DNA of 64,000 nt, from positions 1-64,000 of the forward strand of contig NZ_VJWE01000004.1 in assembly GCF_007993815.1 (NCBI RefSeq), in the 5' to 3' direction. The position numbers were made by a program, and so were the translations under genes. The stretch comes from Acidovorax delafieldii. Lineage in GTDB: Bacteria; Pseudomonadota; Gammaproteobacteria; Burkholderiales; Burkholderiaceae_C. This document shows, piece by piece, positions 2,352-50,694 of the stretch (positions within the stretch are counted from its first letter, which is position 1; each line of letters starts with the position of its first letter). Under the pieces are notes generated by a model, which was not told where the DNA came from, ran no database searches, and worked only from the letters and a program-made list of their open reading frames with translations.

Positions 2352-3500
2352 TCAAACAGCCTGCACGACCCAACGGCCCGCAACCCGAACCAGTTCACGA
2401 TCACAGTGGAACTCATCCACCTCACTCTCGTGCCCTGGCAAAACACACACCACTGTTTCCCCGGCGGACCGAAGCTCTCCAATCGCAGCATTCACATCCG
2501 CGGCCTCGCCCCAAGGAGCACGAATGGCGGCTTTCAGCGCACGGGGGGGCACCACGCCAACCACCTGCTTGATGTCCAAACTGAATCCCGCCGCAGGACG
2601 ATTTCGGCCAAACACTGCCCCCACCTCGTCGTATCGGCCGCCGCGCACCAGGGCATCGCTGGCACCGGGCGCATAGATCGCGAAGCGCGCACCGCTGTAG
2701 TAGGCATATCCACGCAAATCAGCCAAGTCGAAAGTGACAGAGGCTCCATCAAGACGCGACGCCAACCACTTCAAATTTGATAGCACTTGAGACACACCAG
2801 AAATACGCTTCAGCGCATTTTCAGCCTCAGCCAGAACAGCAGAGTCTCCATATAACTGGACAAGAGCGAGAAGGCCTTGCCGAGAATCCTCAGGAAAGCC
2901 ACGCGTCAAGACTGTCAACTCTCCCGCATCCTTGGCCGCCAAAGCAGAATGAATGCCGCTGAGCAGTTGCGGGCTCACGCTCACACCAGCCAACAGGCTG
3001 CGGACGATGCGCACGTCCGCTAGGTCAATGGTTGTGTCGCGTACATTGGCAACTCGCAAGCACTCCCGAGCTAACTGCAAAGCCTCAAGGTCGGCCTCCA
3101 GCCCGGTATGCCCATAGATTTCGGCACCAAACTGAAGAGGCTCGCGGGTGGCATGCGGGCGGTCAGGACGCGTGTGCAACACAGGACCACAGTAGCAAAG
3201 ACGTGTCACACCTTTGCGATTGAGCAAATGCGCATCAATGCGAGCAACCTGCGGAGTCGTATCAGCTCGCAACCCCATGGAACGACCAGATAGCTGGTCC
3301 ACCAGTTTAAAGGTTTGCAGATCCAGCGCTTCGCCAGTGCCCGTAAGGAGAGATTCCAGATGCTCCAACAGCGGGGGCATCACTAACTCATAACCATAAC
3401 AGCGGGCTGTATCAAGCAGCCCGCGACGCAATTCTTCGATGTGCCGCGCTTCAGACGGCAAGACATCGGCAATGTGATCCGGAAGGACCCAAGCAGACAT
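2352..3500 (-). CDS. hisZ: ATP phosphoribosyltransferase regulatory subunit
   Basis: HisZ resembles the histidyl-tRNA synthetase catalytic core but does not charge tRNA. It forms a complex with the short form of HisG, which performs the first step of histidine biosynthesis, and confers histidine feedback. The 382-residue protein has the motif [15 protein letters not shown] and a late [11 protein letters not shown] segment. A genuine histidyl-tRNA synthetase is encoded separately at 10978-12300, which supports this assignment. A short-form hisG should exist elsewhere; none is in the window. Confidence 0.93.
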
Positions 3501-3590
3501 GGAGAAAAGGGGAGGCTGTTAAAACCGTGATTCTACCGGGACCGGGCAAGACTCCCCAAGGAATCTCCTAGTCGAGGGGTGTGACAGCGT

Positions 3591-3773
3591 TCAGAAACAA
3601 AGCATCAGAAGACCTGCAGCAAGGGCCAACAATGCGAAAAAGCGTATTTGGCCATCCTGCAATTGAGCGATCTGCGCAACCGTACGTTTCCAAACCTGGG
3701 GGGACAAAAAAGGCAAAAAACCCTCAATTACCAGGACCAAGGCAAATGCCGTCCAAAGACTGTCCCACATCAT
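3591..3773 (-). CDS. DUF2065 small inner-membrane protein
   Basis: This 60-residue protein has two hydrophobic segments (about residues 5-24 and 44-60) split by a short polar stretch containing Trp-Lys-Arg. Size, topology and position directly after hflC match the DUF2065 (YjeT) family, which often accompanies hflKC. Function is unknown. Two consecutive ATG codons (3773 and 3770) follow a GAGAGG ribosome site; either could be the start. Confidence 0.8.
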   Translation of the reverse strand: MMWDSLWTAFALVLVIEGFLPFLSPQVWKRTVAQIAQLQDGQIRFFALLALAAGLLMLCF

Positions 3774-3800
3774 TCACCTCTCACAACCAGCGCCACTTGT

Positions 3801-4709
3801 TTACTTGCGTGGAGCAACAGGCGCCGATGCAGAAGCTGAGCCGCGAAAGACCTTGAAGAAGTCAGAGGACGATGGGTCCAGCACCATCACATCACTTTTC
3901 TTATTGAAACTGCCCTTGTACGCCTCGAGACTGCGATAAAACTGGGCAAATTGAGGATCTTTGCCAAACGCCTCGGCGTAGATGCGGGCCGCTTCCGCGT
4001 CGCCCTCACCTTTCAGCTTTTGAGCATCCCGATAGGCATTGGCAATTGTGATCTCGCGCTGACGATCTGCGTCTGCACGAATCTTTTCGCCCTCTGCAGC
4101 ACCTGTAGAGCGCAACTCATTGGCCACGCGCTTTCGCTCCGCTTCCATGCGCCGGTACACAGATTCAGTGATGGCTTCCACGTAATCAACACGGGTAATG
4201 CGCACATCCACCACATCAACCCCCCAGGGCTTGGAACCACGAACTGTCTCCAAGACTTCGCGCTTGACATCAGCCATCAGCGCTTCGCGTTTGAGTGAGA
4301 GCAGCTCTTTCACCGTGCGCTTGTTGATTTCCTCCTGGAAAGCATTGCGAACCACCCGATTGAGCTGCATGGCGCCCGCCGTCTCATCCAGCCCAACGTT
4401 GCGAATGTACTCAGTGGGCTCGGAAATGCGCCAGCGCACATACCAGTCGATAACGACACGCTGCTTTTCAGCAGTCAACATGGGCTCGGTGTCCGTGCTG
4501 TCCAAAGTCAGCAACCGCTTGTCTATGTAAGTGACGTTCTGAAATGGAGGAGGCAGCTTGAAATTGAGGCCAGGCTCCGTGATCACTTCTTTGATCTGAC
4601 CCAGTGCATACAACACTCCAAACTGCCGCTGGTCAACAACAAAAAGCATGGAGCTCATGAGAGCAAGCACCACCAGAAGGGTAGATGCAATAAAACCGAC
4701 TCTGTTCAC
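3801..4709 (-). CDS. hflC: FtsH protease modulator HflC
   Basis: HflC is a membrane-anchored SPFH/prohibitin protein that forms, with HflK, a large periplasm-facing assembly around the FtsH protease and limits its access to membrane substrates. One N-terminal membrane segment (about residues 5-25) precedes the SPFH domain (VDQRQFGVLYALGQIKEV) and a long helical region rich in Arg, Glu and Ala. Start is GTG at 4709, preceded by AGGAG. It begins 9 nt after the hflK stop, so the two are cotranslated. Confidence 0.95.
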   Translation of the reverse strand: MNRVGFIASTLLVVLALMSSMLFVVDQRQFGVLYALGQIKEVITEPGLNFKLPPPFQNVTYIDKRLLTLDSTDTEPMLTAEKQRVVIDWYVRWRISEPTEYIRNVGLDETAGAMQLNRVVRNAFQEEINKRTVKELLSLKREALMADVKREVLETVRGSKPWGVDVVDVRITRVDYVEAITESVYRRMEAERKRVANELRSTGAAEGEKIRADADRQREITIANAYRDAQKLKGEGDAEAARIYAEAFGKDPQFAQFYRSLEAYKGSFNKKSDVMVLDPSSSDFFKVFRGSASASAPVAPRK

Positions 4710-4718
4710 GAACTACTC

Positions 4719-6089
4719 CTAGCGGGATTCACGTTCACGGGTGCGGCTGGTGTCGCGCGCGCGAGCGTCATTCGAAAAGGTTGGTGCGGGTGTTGCTGGT
4801 GACACCGCTGGAGGCACGCTGGTGGCCGCAGGGGCATCCAGCGCTCCGGACCCGCTTGCTACGCCTTGCATAATTTTGTCGAGCGGCAGGTACAGCAAAT
4901 TGGAGCCTTGACGCGACTCCACCAGCACCTTGGTCACGTTGCCATAAATCTGCTGCATCGTGTCCAGATACATACGATCACGGGTTACCTGCGGAGCCTT
5001 CTGGTACTCCGCCAAAATAGAAGCAAACCGCTGCGAGTCACCTTGAGCCTGCGCAACGATCCTCGCCTTGTACGCAGCAGCCTCCTCGTTCAGACGAGAG
5101 GCAGAGCCCACAGCGCGTGGAATCACATCATTCGCGTAAGCCTGTGCCTCGTTTTTGGCACGCTCGCGCTCCTGTCCGGCTTTGAGGACATCATCAAAGG
5201 AGGACTGCACCTGCTCAGGCGGCCGCACACCGCCCTGCTGCAAATTGATGCCAACAACTTCGACGCCAACTTTGTAACGGTCCAATATGGTCTGCATGAG
5301 CGCGCGAACGCGAGGCGCAATCTGATCCCGCTCTTCAGCCAATGCCGTGTCCATGCGCATCTTGCCCACCACCTCGCGAACGGCGGTCTCAGCTGCTTGA
5401 ACCACGGCATCTGAGGGATTCTTGCTTTCGAAAAGCCATGCCCTGGCATCGCTCAGGCGATACTGAACGGCAAACTTGATCTCCACGATGTTTTCGTCTT
5501 CGGTCAGCATCGCGGACTCTCTCAAGCCCGTGCTTTTGATGACCGTGTCCCTCCCCACATCAGCGGAGCGAATTTGTGTCACAAAAACCAGCTCATGACG
5601 CTCAATTGGGTAAGGCAAGCGCCAGTTAAAACCTGCACCCACGGTGCTTTTGTACTTGCCGAATTGCGTAATGACGGCTTGCTGACCTTCTTGCACTATG
5701 AAAAAACCTGTGCCCATCCAGATCACGAACGCAATGCCAGCAATCAAGCCAACACCCACACCGGCGCTTTTCATATCAGGTTGAAAGCCACCGCCAGCCC
5801 CTCCTCCCGGGCCACGGCCAGAGCCATTCTTTCCCCCGAACAGACTGCCAAGCTTGCGATTAAGGTCACGCCAGAGCTCGTCGAGATCAGGCGGCTGCTG
5901 GCCATTGCTTGGCCGCTGATCCCCACCCCTCTGACCTGCGGGTGGCGCTGCAGGTCGATCCTCAGGGCGCGCGTTACCGTCCTCCGACTTATCATCCCCG
6001 CGACCCCAGCGTGGATCGTTCAGATTGAACATGCCCCGAATACGGTCCGGCAATGAAGCCCAGCGTAGGGTGCGAGTATGAAAATTCAT
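4719..6089 (-). CDS. hflK: FtsH protease modulator HflK
   Basis: Partner of HflC in the HflKC complex. The N-terminal cytoplasmic part is rich in Gly, Pro, Arg and Asp and includes NLNDPRWGRG, the usual HflK beginning. A single membrane segment (FVIWMGTGFFIVQEG) is followed by the SPFH domain, a helical region and a disordered Ser/Pro/Arg tail. The start is uncertain: ATG at 6089 gives an unusual 19-residue lead, while ATG at 6032 starts directly at MFNLNDPRW. Neither has a strong ribosome site. Confidence 0.93.
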   Translation of the reverse strand: MNFHTRTLRWASLPDRIRGMFNLNDPRWGRGDDKSEDGNARPEDRPAAPPAGQRGGDQRPSNGQQPPDLDELWRDLNRKLGSLFGGKNGSGRGPGGGAGGGFQPDMKSAGVGVGLIAGIAFVIWMGTGFFIVQEGQQAVITQFGKYKSTVGAGFNWRLPYPIERHELVFVTQIRSADVGRDTVIKSTGLRESAMLTEDENIVEIKFAVQYRLSDARAWLFESKNPSDAVVQAAETAVREVVGKMRMDTALAEERDQIAPRVRALMQTILDRYKVGVEVVGINLQQGGVRPPEQVQSSFDDVLKAGQERERAKNEAQAYANDVIPRAVGSASRLNEEAAAYKARIVAQAQGDSQRFASILAEYQKAPQVTRDRMYLDTMQQIYGNVTKVLVESRQGSNLLYLPLDKIMQGVASGSGALDAPAATSVPPAVSPATPAPTFSNDARARDTSRTRERESR

Positions 6090-45803: not shown

Positions 45804-47471
45804 TCACAACCTTCGCTTGTGGCTCTGCTTGATGCGGTACATGGCCGCGTCGGCGCTGGCCATGAGTGTGCGCGCATCCTGCGCGTCGCGGGGGAACAGG
45901 CTCAGGCCGATGCTGGCGCGCACGGCCAGGGGCTCGCCGTCGATGTCCAGCGGTGGCTCGAACGCGTGCTGCAGCTTGGTCACGATCTGCAGCGCGGCCT
46001 CTTCGGAATCCACGTTTTCGCACAGCACCGTGAACTCGTCCCCGGCGAGCCGGGCCACGGTGTCCACCTGCCGCACGGCGCCGACGATGGTGCGTGCCAC
46101 CGCCTGCAGCACCAGGTCGCCCACGGCATGCCCGCGCGTGTCGTTGATGGCTTTGAACTCATCCAGGTCCACGAACAACAGGGCACAGCTGCGGCCGCTG
46201 CGGCGCGACAGCTCCAGCACCTGGGCCAGGCGCTGCTCGAACATGCGGCGGTTGGGCAGGCCGGTGAGTGCGTCGTGGTGCGCCAGGTGGGCCATGGCGT
46301 CACGGCTCAGGTTCAGCTCAGCCAACTGGCGGCTGATCTGCTGCTCCATGTCCTGGAAGCTGCGGGCCAGCTCGCCCACCTCGTCGCCCCGGTGCACCGG
46401 CAGCGCGCCGTGGGCCTCCCCGCGTGAAAACGCCTGCGCCGCCTTCACCATGGCCTGCAGCGGCTGGGTCACCAGGCGCGACACCCCGGCCGCCAGGGCC
46501 ACACCCACCACGCTGAGCACCAGCAGGATCTTGAGGATGCTGCGGCCCAGATCCAGCACCTCGCCCTGCACCACGGCCAGCGGCTGCGAGAGCCCCACGA
46601 CCATGAAACGCCCCTCGTCCGCGTTGCCAAAGGGCATGCGCACAAAGGCAAAAACACGCGCCTCCTCGTCGTCGGTGCCGGACTGGCTGAGTACCGCCTC
46701 TTCGGCACGGCCATCGACCAGCGCGGCCACCTGCGGGAACGACTCCTGGATCAGGATGCGCTGGCCCCGGTCAAAGCCAAAGGTCTGCGCGGCGTCCGGG
46801 TGCACCAGAAAGTCACCCCAGCGGTTGCTCAGATAAAAACCGTAGGGGGTCGGCAGCGCTGCGTTGAAGTTGTGCAGGAACGGCGCGGCCGCCACCCGCA
46901 CCACCACCACGCCCCGCAGCTGCCCCCCCTGTACCACGGGCGACGCCATGTTGAACACGGGCACGGCCGCCTCCTGCGCGGCGTCTTCATGGTTGATGCC
47001 GAACTCGGACACATACACCTCCCCATCGGGCAGGCTGAGGGCCTCGAAAACGAACGGAAAGTGCGACTTCTCCTGCAGCTGGTCATCGGGCACGCGCACC
47101 AGCTTGTCGCCCTGGCGGTCGATGCGCACCAGCTCCAGCCCGTAGTCGCTGGCGCTGATGAAGCGGATCTGCAAATAGGCGGGATGGGCCTGCAGGTTGG
47201 CCTTGAACAGGTCGGCCAGCCGTCCCTGGTCTTGTTCGACGGCAGCGGCGTCGGCCAGAAAGGCTGTGTCGCGCGCCACCGTGCCAAAGCCAGCCTGCAT
47301 GTGGCGCGCCAGCACCTGCGTGGTGGCCAGCAGCGAGCGCTCGGCCCGCCCCTGCAGGCGTTCGCGGCTCGAGTCAAAGGTGTAGTAGCCCGCCAAAATG
47401 GCCGCGAACACGCTGAACGAGGCCAGCAGGGCCCCCAGCCTCAGCGCGATGCTCCATTTCACGCGTGCCAT
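45804..47471 (-). CDS. Membrane diguanylate cyclase paired with a PotD-like protein
   Basis: The 555-residue protein has a first membrane segment (about residues 7-28), a periplasmic sensor region, a second membrane segment (about 300-320), a HAMP domain and a GGDEF domain. The active loop is AGDEF, with Ala476 in place of the first Gly; the rest of the motif and the I-site RQVD five residues before it are intact, so activity is plausible. It begins 3 nt after the binding-protein gene. It lacks the EAL domain of V. cholerae MbaA. Confidence 0.9.
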   Translation of the reverse strand: MARVKWSIALRLGALLASFSVFAAILAGYYTFDSSRERLQGRAERSLLATTQVLARHMQAGFGTVARDTAFLADAAAVEQDQGRLADLFKANLQAHPAYLQIRFISASDYGLELVRIDRQGDKLVRVPDDQLQEKSHFPFVFEALSLPDGEVYVSEFGINHEDAAQEAAVPVFNMASPVVQGGQLRGVVVVRVAAAPFLHNFNAALPTPYGFYLSNRWGDFLVHPDAAQTFGFDRGQRILIQESFPQVAALVDGRAEEAVLSQSGTDDEEARVFAFVRMPFGNADEGRFMVVGLSQPLAVVQGEVLDLGRSILKILLVLSVVGVALAAGVSRLVTQPLQAMVKAAQAFSRGEAHGALPVHRGDEVGELARSFQDMEQQISRQLAELNLSRDAMAHLAHHDALTGLPNRRMFEQRLAQVLELSRRSGRSCALLFVDLDEFKAINDTRGHAVGDLVLQAVARTIVGAVRQVDTVARLAGDEFTVLCENVDSEEAALQIVTKLQHAFEPPLDIDGEPLAVRASIGLSLFPRDAQDARTLMASADAAMYRIKQSHKRRL

Positions 47472-47474
47472 CGG

Positions 47475-48578
47475 TCAGAACCGGTTGGGTCGGTCGCCCG
47501 ACACGATGCGTTGCCACAGGCGTGCGCGCAGGGCTTCGTCTTCCACCGGCTCCAGCCACACGATGGGGCCCATGGTGCCCCCGGGCACATCGCCCGCCAG
47601 CGCTGGTGGCTCGTCCAGGGTGTTGGCCAGCCCTTGGCGCCGCGTGAACTCGCGGCTCACGGCCGGGTCGAGCATGTAGTTGATCCACTCGGCAGCCAGC
47701 GCCACCTGGGTGGAGCGGCGGGTGATGGCCCAGCAATCCAGCCAGGCGAGCGCGCCCTCCTTGGGCACAACGTAGCCCACATCCAGCCCCGCATCGCGCA
47801 GCTGCTTGAGCTGCTGCTGGCCGTAGTTGGCGTGCATTACCGCCACCTTGTGCTTGCGAAACAGCTCCACCGACTCCTCGGGCAGGCTGTAGAACGACCG
47901 CACATTGCGCCGCAGGGCCACCAGGTCCTTGGCCAGCGGGCTGAAACGGGCGGGGTCGATGCGAAACGGCGGCAGGCCCCGGTGCATGGCGGCCAGCGAA
48001 AACCCGTGGCTGCTGCCGTCAAACGCCAGCACCTTGCCCTGCCAGCGCGGGTCCCACAGCACGGCGATCGACTGCGGTGGCGTGCTGAACTGCTGGCGGT
48101 CGTACACCAGCCCCATCTCGGAATAGGTGAAGGGCATGGCATAGACCTCGCCCCGCCAGCCAATGCCCGAGATGGTGTGCAGCTGGCGAAACCGGGGCAG
48201 CTGCCCAGCAGTGTTGCGGATGTTGCCGAGCGGCAACGGCGCGAGCTTGTCATGGAGGATCAGCCGCGCAATTTCCGCCGTGTTGGCAGCCACCAGGTCA
48301 AAACCCGGCCCGTCGGTGCTGTCCATCTTGGCGCGCAAGACGTCGTCCGATGCCACGATGGTGATCTCCACCTTGACCCCGTGGCGCTTCTCGAACACCG
48401 CGACAAAGTCCGGGTCGGCATAACCCGGCCAGGCCAGCACCCTGAGGACCGTCGCGGCCTGCGAGGACCCCGGCAGCCATGCGAGCCCCGCCAGCGCGAA
48501 CAGCAGCACGGGCAGGCTGGCGCGCCACCCGTGCAGCGCCCTACCCGCCAACGCCCGCCCACATGCCGCGAACCCCAT
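47475..48578 (-). CDS. PotD-like periplasmic binding protein
   Basis: A 367-residue secreted protein with a signal peptide ending about residue 42 (LPGSSQA). It matches the polyamine-binding family: LRVLAWPGYADPDFVAVFEK, GPGFDLVAANTAEI, VPKEGALAWLDCWAI and YMLDPAVSREFT. By hand alignment with E. coli PotD, the pocket Trp of the first motif and the Trp/Asp of AWLD are kept, but the Asp168/Glu171 pair and Trp229 are changed. No PotABC transporter genes adjoin; a diguanylate cyclase follows 3 nt later. Confidence 0.88.
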   Translation of the reverse strand: MGFAACGRALAGRALHGWRASLPVLLFALAGLAWLPGSSQAATVLRVLAWPGYADPDFVAVFEKRHGVKVEITIVASDDVLRAKMDSTDGPGFDLVAANTAEIARLILHDKLAPLPLGNIRNTAGQLPRFRQLHTISGIGWRGEVYAMPFTYSEMGLVYDRQQFSTPPQSIAVLWDPRWQGKVLAFDGSSHGFSLAAMHRGLPPFRIDPARFSPLAKDLVALRRNVRSFYSLPEESVELFRKHKVAVMHANYGQQQLKQLRDAGLDVGYVVPKEGALAWLDCWAITRRSTQVALAAEWINYMLDPAVSREFTRRQGLANTLDEPPALAGDVPGGTMGPIVWLEPVEDEALRARLWQRIVSGDRPNRF

Positions 48579-48636
48579 GCCAAAAGCCTTTCCAGCAATA
48601 ACTGGTTACAAAGAGTTTACGCGGACAATAGGGCGC

Positions 48637-50694
48637 GTGACGATCCCTCAGTCTTTCATTCAGGAACTGCTCACCCGTGTGGACGTGGTGGACATCGTGG
48701 GGCGCTACGTCCAGCTGAAAAAAGGTGGCGCCAATTTCATGGGGCTGTGCCCCTTTCACGGAGAGAAGTCTCCCTCTTTCAGCGTCAGCCCCGCCAAGCA
48801 GTTCTATCACTGCTTTGGCTGCGGCAAGAACGGCAATGCCATCAGCTTTCTGATGGACCACGCGGGCATGGGGTTTGTCGAGGCCGTCCAGGACCTAGCC
48901 CAGAGCGTGGGCCTGCAGGTGCCCGATGACGACATCTCCCCGCAGGAAAAGGAACGCGCCGCCGCCGCGCGACAGAAACAAGCCACGCTGAACGAGGTGC
49001 TGGAGAAAGCCGCCGACGCCTACCGCCGCCACCTGCGCGAGTCGCAGCGCGCCATTGGGTATTTCAAGGGCCGGGGTGTTTCGGGCGCGGTGGCCAAGCG
49101 CTACGGCCTGGGCTACGCGCCCGAAGGCTGGCGCAGCCTGGCCAGCGTGTTCCCAAGCTACGACGACCCGCTGCTGGAGGAAAGCGGCCTGGTCATCGTC
49201 AACGACGAAGACGGTGGCAAGCGCTACGACCGGTTCCGCGACCGGGTGATGTTCCCCATCCGCAACGTCAAGGGCGAGTACATCGGCTTTGGTGGCCGGG
49301 TGCTGGGGGACGACAAGCCCAAGTACCTCAACTCCCCCGAAACCCCGGTATTTCACAAGGGGCGCGAGCTGTACGGCCTGTTCGAGGCCCGCACGCCCAT
49401 CCGGGAGGCGGGCTACGCGCTGGTCACCGAGGGCTACATGGACGTGGTGGCCCTGGCGCAGCTGGGTTTTCCGAACGCGGTGGCCACACTGGGCACGGCG
49501 TGCACGCCAGAGCATGTGCAAAAGCTGCTGCGGTTTACCGACGCGGTGGTGTTCAGCTTTGACGGCGACAACGCCGGACGGCGCGCTGCGCGCAAGGCCC
49601 TGGACGGCGCCCTGCCCCACGCTACCGACACGCGCAGCATCAAGTTTCTGTTCCTGCCCGCAGAGCACGACCCGGACAGCTTCATCCGCGACCATGGCAC
49701 CGACGCCTTTGCGCGCCATGTGAGCGACGCGATGCCGCTGAGCCGCTTCCTGGTCGAATCGGCCAGCGAGGGCTGCGACCTGGCCACCGCCGAAGGACGT
49801 GCCCACATGGCCAGCAATGCACGCCCGCTGTGGACGGCGCTGCCCGACGGCGTGCTCAAGCGCCAGTTGCTGGGCGAGCTGGCCGAGCTGACCCAGCTCA
49901 ATGCCCGCGACCTGTCCGACCTGTGGGGCCAGGCCGCCGCCCGCGACGGCCTGCGCGCTGCACACCATGCCCCCCCGCAGCGCCACCCGCCCCGTACCGC
50001 CCCTGATGACGCCCCCAGTTGGGATGCCCCGCTCGACACCGATGGCTGGCAACCCCACAGCGAGTCGACAGGCACGGCCTACGACCCCGGCTACGGCAGT
50101 TACGGCAATCAGGGAGGCTACGGAGGCCAAAATGGCTATGGCAGCGGCGGCAAGCCTCCGTTCCGCAAGGGAGGCGACTGGAAAAGCGGCGGGGGCTGGA
50201 AAAAACGCGACAAGGACGCTCCCTGGCCGCCCCAGCCCCGTTTGCCCCGCACGCCGGCCATGGGCCGGGCGGACCACGCGGCGCGGCTGCTGCTGTCGCA
50301 CATGGCGTTTCTGGAAGAGCTGACGCACGACGACCACACCACACTGGCGGCCCAACCAGCGCCCCATGGGCCACTGTTTGCGTGGCTGGAGGCGCAGTTC
50401 CACGAACATGGCCCCCTGGCGTGGGCCGTGCTGCGCGAAAGCCTGCGCGATCACGAGTGCGAAGAGCTGGCCGTCAAGGTGATGACCGGCTCGCATGCGC
50501 AGACCGAGGGCGAACTGCACGAATTGCGGCTGGAGCTGCGCGACCTGCTCACCCGCATGCAGATCGAAGACATCAAGGAGCAGCAAAAAGTGCTGGTGCT
50601 GCAGGTGGCACAAGACCCCTCGGCCCTGGAGCGCTACCGGGCGCTGGCCGAAAAGCGCAAGGAACTGGAGCAAATAGCGCCAAAAACCACTTGA
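48637..50694 (+). CDS. dnaG: DNA primase
   Basis: DnaG makes RNA primers at the replication fork. The CHC2 zinc finger (GLCPFHGEKSPSF, FYHCFGCGKNGNA) is followed by the RNA polymerase domain and the TOPRIM segment (VTEGYMDVVALAQLG; FSFDGDNAGRRAARKA). The DnaB-binding C-terminus is intact. Length is 685 residues, longer than usual because of a Gly/Tyr/Ser/Lys-rich insertion near residues 485-530. The start is GTG at 48637 (MTIPQSFIQELL). Confidence 0.96.
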   Translation: MTIPQSFIQELLTRVDVVDIVGRYVQLKKGGANFMGLCPFHGEKSPSFSVSPAKQFYHCFGCGKNGNAISFLMDHAGMGFVEAVQDLAQSVGLQVPDDDISPQEKERAAAARQKQATLNEVLEKAADAYRRHLRESQRAIGYFKGRGVSGAVAKRYGLGYAPEGWRSLASVFPSYDDPLLEESGLVIVNDEDGGKRYDRFRDRVMFPIRNVKGEYIGFGGRVLGDDKPKYLNSPETPVFHKGRELYGLFEARTPIREAGYALVTEGYMDVVALAQLGFPNAVATLGTACTPEHVQKLLRFTDAVVFSFDGDNAGRRAARKALDGALPHATDTRSIKFLFLPAEHDPDSFIRDHGTDAFARHVSDAMPLSRFLVESASEGCDLATAEGRAHMASNARPLWTALPDGVLKRQLLGELAELTQLNARDLSDLWGQAAARDGLRAAHHAPPQRHPPRTAPDDAPSWDAPLDTDGWQPHSESTGTAYDPGYGSYGNQGGYGGQNGYGSGGKPPFRKGGDWKSGGGWKKRDKDAPWPPQPRLPRTPAMGRADHAARLLLSHMAFLEELTHDDHTTLAAQPAPHGPLFAWLEAQFHEHGPLAWAVLRESLRDHECEELAVKVMTGSHAQTEGELHELRLELRDLLTRMQIEDIKEQQKVLVLQVAQDPSALERYRALAEKRKELEQIAPKTT

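Follow-up and report, generated by a model that had tools for sequence, protein, structure and literature searches.

The DNA analysed here (hereafter the window) is a stretch of 64,000 nucleotides (nt) from Acidovorax delafieldii (contig NZ_VJWE01000004.1, positions 1 to 64,000), which carries on its reverse strand a gene for a secreted solute-binding protein (SBP) followed at once by a gene for a membrane-bound diguanylate cyclase (DGC). The SBP gene (47475..48578) specifies a protein of 367 residues with a PotF/PotD-like fold that matches the Pfam models SBP_bac_8 (2.8e-25) and SBP_bac_6 (7.5e-17). Its single N-terminal hydrophobic stretch (residues 20-38) fits the predicted signal peptide (residues ~1-41; 48456..48578), whose cut we place by eye near SQA/AT. 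The top NCBIfam models score far under their cut-offs (PotF, 64 bits against 636; YdcS, 62 against 725; PotD, 54 against 582), and so the protein is, judged by its sequence, a member of the polyamine-type superfamily that lies outside the PotF, YdcS and PotD equivalogs. Its stop codon is separated by 3 nt (47472..47474) from the start of the DGC gene (45804..47471), and the two genes are presumably cotranscribed. The DGC, of 555 residues, has two hydrophobic stretches (8-26 and 312-330) and is built as a transmembrane (TM) helix, a periplasmic double-Cache (dCache) sensor (residues ~34-305; 46557..47372), a second TM helix, a HAMP domain (residues 330-375 by Pfam; 46347..46484) and a GGDEF domain (residues 397-553 by Pfam; 45813..46283); it thus has the double-Cache periplasmic fold between two TM helices that defines dCache receptors. 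Within the sensor, residues 79-238 match the Pfam family HK_sensor_dom_bact (PF21623), and the GGDEF domain, to which 5m3c is the closest PDB entry by sequence, scores 158 bits against a gathering score of 23.8. The motif string of the latter reads RQVD-TVARL-AGDEF, comprising the RxxD inhibitory site (RQVD, residues 467-470; 46062..46073) and the active-site motif (AGDEF, residues 476-480; 46032..46046). The original prediction, made from the sequence alone, had described just this arrangement of a secreted binder and, 3 nt downstream, a membrane sensor-HAMP-GGDEF protein; its coordinates are exact and Pfam agrees with it.

The pair is conserved well beyond the window. In a sample of 36 genomes of the genus, which is Acidovorax as judged by named relatives, orthologues of the SBP and the DGC occur in the same 26, are adjacent in every one of these, and are both absent from the other ten (nine of them at least 90% complete); no genome has one alone. 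Three of the pairs are imperfect (L and G numbers are our labels for loci and genomes): the DGC gene of G020 is divided between contigs, G012 has an SBP that seems broken or misassembled, and in G007 the DGC has suffered an insertion. Across 399 genomes of the order, for each of which up to five first-look candidates were scored, so that a few orthologues may be missed, the SBP profile matches 27 (E 1e-40 or better; at least 428 bits) and a profile of the DGC N-terminal part matches 16 (at least 334 bits, the next best being 168), and all 16 DGC orthologues directly follow the SBP. Among the best 80 of 469 relatives from a scan of genome contigs, 79 have the DGC on the strand of the SBP and no more than 100 nt from its stop, counting four loci in which the DGC is matched only partly owing to contig ends or broken frames (L269, L289, L322 and L336); in the 80th, L287, the contig ends behind the SBP. 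These named loci come from Acidovorax, Simplicispira, Giesbergeria, Comamonas granuli, Curvibacter, Rhodoferax, Undibacterium, Massilia, Gallionella, Oryzomicrobium and Aquabacterium, among others, and 21 of them are titled Pseudomonas or Pseudomonadaceae. The latter overturn a restriction of the pair to the order, as a class sample of 369 genomes, with no close SBP outside the order, had it. A chance pairing is ruled out by the conservation in the genus, order and named genomes, and the survey for conserved pairing that the original prediction had proposed thereby excludes non-conservation, which would have spoken against it.

The surroundings of the pair vary between lineages, and hence the SBP and DGC genes are themselves kept as a unit. 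In the window they are flanked by a divergent dnaG and a gene for an AMP-binding acyl-CoA ligase, which bears out the earlier remark that no transporter genes adjoin them there. dnaG stands on the other side of the pair in 25 of the 26 genus genomes with it, the contig of G010 beginning too close. Beyond the Acidovorax-like lineages the surroundings mostly differ; Curvibacter gracilis retains dnaG and the ligase, and the pairs of Burkholderia are found without dnaG, rpoD or acyl-CoA ligase around them. In Burkholderia replicons the two genes overlap by ATGA in all four looked at, with identities of 50-53% for the SBP and 38-39% over 547-549 residues for the DGC. When the DGC start is taken as the start codon nearest the SBP stop, an ATG stands at +3 in 28 and at -4 in 25 of the 79 named loci. 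As to the dnaG side of the window, the longest dnaG frame runs into the SBP start codon (48577-48637). The usual DnaG N-terminus points to the GTG at 48637 as the dnaG start; in that case dnaG and the SBP gene would have a short divergent promoter region in common.

The pocket of the SBP has lost most of the acidic residues that hold polyamines. In PotF the pocket consists of proximal S38, D39 and D247, an aromatic box of W37, W244 and F276, and distal S85, S87, A182, E185, D278 and L348, and each of D39, E185, D247 and D278 is reported to be retained by no fewer than 96% of 250 polyamine systems (PMC8666671). We aligned 94 relatives at these positions, of which 83, with L287 among them, are from the paired set and 11 are lone SBPs, counting the window protein, which is alike, apart. 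D39 of PotF (E36 of PotD) is glycine in all 94, E185 (E171 of PotD) is histidine in 93, and at D247 one relative has E and the other 93 have Q, R, S, T, K, N or G. Nearly all 94 have thus lost three of the four carboxylates, and D278 is the one that the SBP keeps. W244 is replaced by asparagine in 93 (the match of W229 to N251 has a gap nearby in the alignment and may be off by one, in which case it would be Y252), and Y314 (Y293 of PotD) by leucine in 94. Kept in all 94 are W37, Y40 and D278 of PotF and W34, Y37, W255 and D257 of PotD, while F276 is tryptophan throughout, as it is in PotD. With these carboxylates lost, a dication or trication would be without partners at one end; the ligand is probably not a polyamine. 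A pocket combining an aromatic grip with one carboxylate would suit a single-amine compound, possibly a zwitterion of the omega-amino acid kind. SBP_bac_8 proteins with a polyamine prediction have proved to be binders of γ-aminobutyric acid (GABA) or 5-aminovalerate (PMC11113362), and by analogy either compound may serve as a fair first guess, and as just that. No metabolic gene from which the ligand could be identified recurs in the neighbourhoods of 11 representative loci.

Phylogenetic analysis places the SBP apart from NspS, the polyamine-sensing SBP that acts on the GGDEF-EAL protein MbaA, in so far as two proxies of the same architecture (L257 and L258) can stand for named NspS and MbaA sequences. 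These are proteobacterial pairs of a PotD-like SBP and a periplasmic sensor-HAMP-GGDEF-EAL protein, as identified by eye; at another locus, L256, an SBP gene precedes a different membrane GGDEF protein. In a tree of 111 rows, for which the program issued a long-branch warning, the paired and lone SBPs form one clade of 95 rows (support 100/100), in which the nearest named relatives of the window protein are from Acidovorax. The clade adjoins two ABC (ATP-binding cassette)-transporter SBPs of Rhizobium and Phaeobacter (99/96), and the NspS-like proxies group outside it with PotF/PotD (93/87). The genes adjoining the Rhizobium and Phaeobacter proteins (L122 and L123), which are the nearest ABC-transporter relatives in the tree, have annotations in the metabolism of sugars, lactones and amines, which may hint at the chemistry of the ligand. 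The window SBP is 20.9% and 22.1% identical to the two proxies, to be set beside the identity of at least 30% to NspS and MbaA by which PMC9993111 delimits membership, and a profile comparison of the DGC sensor with the two MbaA-like proxies finds a weak likeness (probability 22.5%, E 9e-4).

The output domain of the family is mainly a GGDEF domain by itself. Where the DGC frame is seen beyond 1.5 kb, at 76 named loci, it ends 1.57-1.80 kb past the SBP stop, too near for an EAL domain to fit. EAL is likewise absent, by frame length or Pfam, from 15 of the 16 DGC orthologues of the order, including that of the window (of the 16, 13 were read to the frame end, and the two besides that of the window, G288 and G318, have frames of only 575 residues). 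The remaining one, L199 (G241; 2715-5267, reverse strand), is paired with the SBP and has a full EAL domain behind the GGDEF domain (PF00563, 260 bits), which overturns the view of the family as GGDEF only throughout. The lack of EAL, on which the original prediction based its suggestion that ligand binding could switch synthesis only, is confirmed for the window protein and does not extend to every member of the family. Among the 79 named orthologues the motif is readable in 72, as GGDEF in 39, AGDEF in 31, and HGDEF and GGEEF in one each, and RxxD is present in 66 of these; AGDEF and RxxD are both invariant in 23 alignment rows of the genus. The AGDEF cyclase VCA0965 of Vibrio cholerae is active and makes c-di-GMP in vitro (PMC3974145), a precedent on which we reject the idea that the present cyclase is inactive owing to its motif. 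In G007 an insert of ~1.48 kb (L069 3705-5181), whose open frame resembles an ISL3-type transposase (named by eye), breaks the DGC orthologue and leaves the SBP frame intact; this is a natural strain without the cyclase.

A transporter partner for the SBP was sought both in the host and around its relatives. The host genome has four PotABC-like operons elsewhere, each with a PotD-like SBP gene within ~3 kb, and this speaks against the SBP being lent to a distant PotABC that lacks one; the earlier objection that the SBP might serve such a system is answered for its PotABC part only. Among 132 fetched loci with the SBP (some organisms counted twice; flanks to ~7 kb, often cut by contig ends), ten have an ABC gene related to PotA/B/C or PotG/H/I, as at L300, where PotA/B/C-like genes lie ~1.4 kb before the SBP. 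Two cases overturn the stronger statement that pairs and lone SBPs alike have no ABC gene next to them. In one metagenome-assembled genome (L196/L326) an ABC-ATPase gene (PF00005) begins ~0.1 kb behind the DGC on the opposite strand, and the lone SBP of L191/L192 is followed by an ABC exporter gene (PF00664 and PF00005, scanned in L191). Neither is a complete importer, and importer genes directly beside the pair were found in none of the fetched loci. The lone SBPs (L085 and L183-L192) come from 11 genomes in three families of the order. Around them we find PotB/PotC-like genes ~3.5-5 kb away (L183 and L186), a convergent gene for a chemoreceptor combining PAS and methyl-accepting chemotaxis protein domains (L187) and an unrelated GGDEF gene at 4.4 kb (L185). 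Lone and paired SBPs differ at two positions that are candidate contacts, on the strength of the alignment: R82 is present in 92% of the paired SBPs as against W in 11/11 lone ones, and R224 in all paired SBPs as against 1/11.

More distant relatives of the sensor were examined at 35 loci, with up to 1.5 kb fetched; within this distance none has a PotF-like SBP of the present kind. At six (L207, L209, L211, L212, L214 and L216) a PhnD-like SBP (PF12974) is encoded directly upstream of the sensor, and the four scanned receptors of these are histidine kinases with PF21623. This combination of a PhnD-like SBP and a PF21623 receptor is a second, unrelated SBP-receptor pairing. A seventh locus has a Peripla_BP_2 fragment ~0.2 kb upstream. 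For 17 loci, one upstream frame each was put to Pfam and no SBP emerged. The other 11 fell outside the scan: six are without a same-strand upstream frame of 130 residues and five have one 0.48-0.96 kb away. This gives a weak indication that binding proteins of different kinds can dock on the sensor.

The best explanation of the whole, and one that we consider likely, is that the SBP and the DGC form a single two-protein receptor. The secreted SBP would take up a small-molecule ligand in the periplasm and, closed upon it, would dock on the dCache domain of the DGC; the signal would then pass via the second TM helix and HAMP to the GGDEF dimer and alter c-di-GMP synthesis, which the RxxD site would limit by feedback. 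The pairing would have originated independently of NspS-MbaA. Several points weigh against this reading or parts of it. As many as 11 of the 27 SBP orthologues of the order are without a DGC orthologue beside them, and hence the SBP can serve another purpose than that of DGC partner. With a binding-protein gene upstream of only seven of the 35 distant sensors (17 having none in the frame scanned and 11 being outside the scan), the data suggest, weakly, that many such sensors do without one, and dCache domains may well sense directly. In Pseudomonas aeruginosa the kinases AgtS and AruS did not interact with the SBPs encoded close to them (PMC11113362), so that gene neighbourhood is no proof of contact between an SBP and a receptor. 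Shared descent alone could yield the correlation (r = 0.95) between SBP and DGC distances, which covers 75 of the 79 pairs. The structure models are of middling confidence (mean predicted local distance difference test, or pLDDT, of 64.4 for the SBP and 67.7 for the DGC), the tree has the long-branch warning and represents NspS by proxies only, and the output is not always that of a cyclase only, since the family has at least one GGDEF-EAL member.

Three other explanations have to be weighed against such a receptor. The pair could be a true NspS-MbaA-type sensor in which the SBP binds a polyamine and reports it to the cyclase. The odds are shifted slightly towards this by the orthologue L199, a GGDEF-EAL protein like MbaA. 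We nevertheless regard it as unlikely, in view of the three conserved carboxylates, out of four, that nearly all 94 relatives have lost, the position of the NspS-like proxies with PotF/PotD outside the SBP clade (subject to the long-branch warning), the SBP identity of 21-22% to the two proxies, and the window DGC itself, which has no EAL domain and possesses the RxxD site missing in the characterised MbaAs (PMC9993111). If, instead, the SBP served a distant ABC transporter and were simply co-transcribed, the cyclase sensing by its own dCache domain, the 11 orthologues without a DGC and the PotB/PotC-like genes ~3.5-5 kb from the lone SBPs of L183 and L186 would find a ready explanation, and non-interacting SBP-receptor neighbours are known (PMC11113362). 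That the DGC orthologue is never found without the SBP (26/26 in the genus and 16/16 in the order sample) makes this account improbable, as do the lack, in the fetched loci, of an importer immediately next to the pair (L196/L326 having its opposite-strand ABC-ATPase gene) and the PotD-like SBPs that the four PotABC-like operons of the host have of their own. A degenerate cyclase, at most a c-di-GMP-binding or scaffold protein, is very unlikely: an AGDEF enzyme makes c-di-GMP in vitro (PMC3974145), 39 of the 72 readable rows have GGDEF, and the motif and RxxD are invariant in the 23 genus rows, to be balanced against the alanine for the first glycine in 31 of the 72 rows and the DGC gene of one genus member that is broken by an insertion.

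The two-protein receptor proposed here is thus a real, conserved and widespread candidate, resembling NspS-MbaA in plan, with an apparently separate origin, a mostly different output and a probably different ligand. A wider reading, which we hold to be possible and put forward tentatively, is that SBP-gated cyclases of Betaproteobacteria and Pseudomonas make up a widespread and hitherto undescribed family, separate from NspS-MbaA and with a non-polyamine ligand (perhaps an omega-amino acid), whose dCache family may be a docking port for SBPs, PotF-like ones for cyclases and PhnD-like ones for histidine kinases. For most diguanylate cyclases, to our knowledge, the input signal has yet to be identified. 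In the present case a cyclase comes, in many environmental bacteria, with a soluble, purifiable and screenable binding protein, so that its input is open to a plain ligand screen. If the wider reading is true, SBP gating of c-di-GMP arose more than once. The pair is also a warning that "PotD-like" need not mean polyamine. We found no description of it in the open-access literature, subscription papers being largely outside that search.

SBP-stimulated cyclase/phosphodiesterase receptors are known (PMC9602780), the closest in plan being NspS-MbaA of V. cholerae and Sinorhizobium meliloti (PMC9993111, PMC8967002). As there, a PotD-like SBP gene directly precedes one for a membrane sensor-HAMP-(x)GDEF protein, and transporter genes beside the pair are unneeded; the 3 nt between the window genes lie within the 20 bp allowed in PMC9993111. 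The original prediction of an NspS-MbaA-type system therefore stands for gene order, and is unsupported as to NspS descent (by the tree with its proxies) and polyamine sensing (by the pocket). In contrast to NspS, the window SBP belongs to another clade, as far as the proxies tell, and has lost the polyamine carboxylates. The window DGC is without EAL and hence without a phosphodiesterase state (the orthologue L199 has the domain), and it combines AGDEF with RxxD, whereas both characterised MbaAs have SGDEF with EAL or EVL and no RxxD (PMC9993111). The text of that survey names Vibrio, Pseudomonas, Sinorhizobium/Ensifer, Marinomonas, Shewanella, Shinella and a few more, and no betaproteobacterium, in agreement with the earlier statement that no described betaproteobacterial counterpart was known; it counts Pseudomonas pairs with a 13-bp overlap. 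VCA0965 shares with the window DGC the AGDEF active site with RxxD and differs in that the abstract of PMC3974145 mentions no paired SBP. The orphan P. aeruginosa proteins PA0602, PA0222 and PA4985 are, by their description, like the window SBP in being SBP_bac_8 proteins encoded outside transporter operons; for PA0602 and PA4985, whose genes are close to those of receptors, polyamine binding had been predicted (PMC11113362). They differ in that they are known to bind GABA (PA0602 and PA4985 also 5-aminovalerate), and in that the tested kinases gave no response (PMC11113362). The PF21623 kinases with a PhnD-like SBP, finally, have the same sensor family directly behind an SBP gene, and differ from the window pair in the family of the SBP (PF12974) and in the four scanned receptors being kinases.

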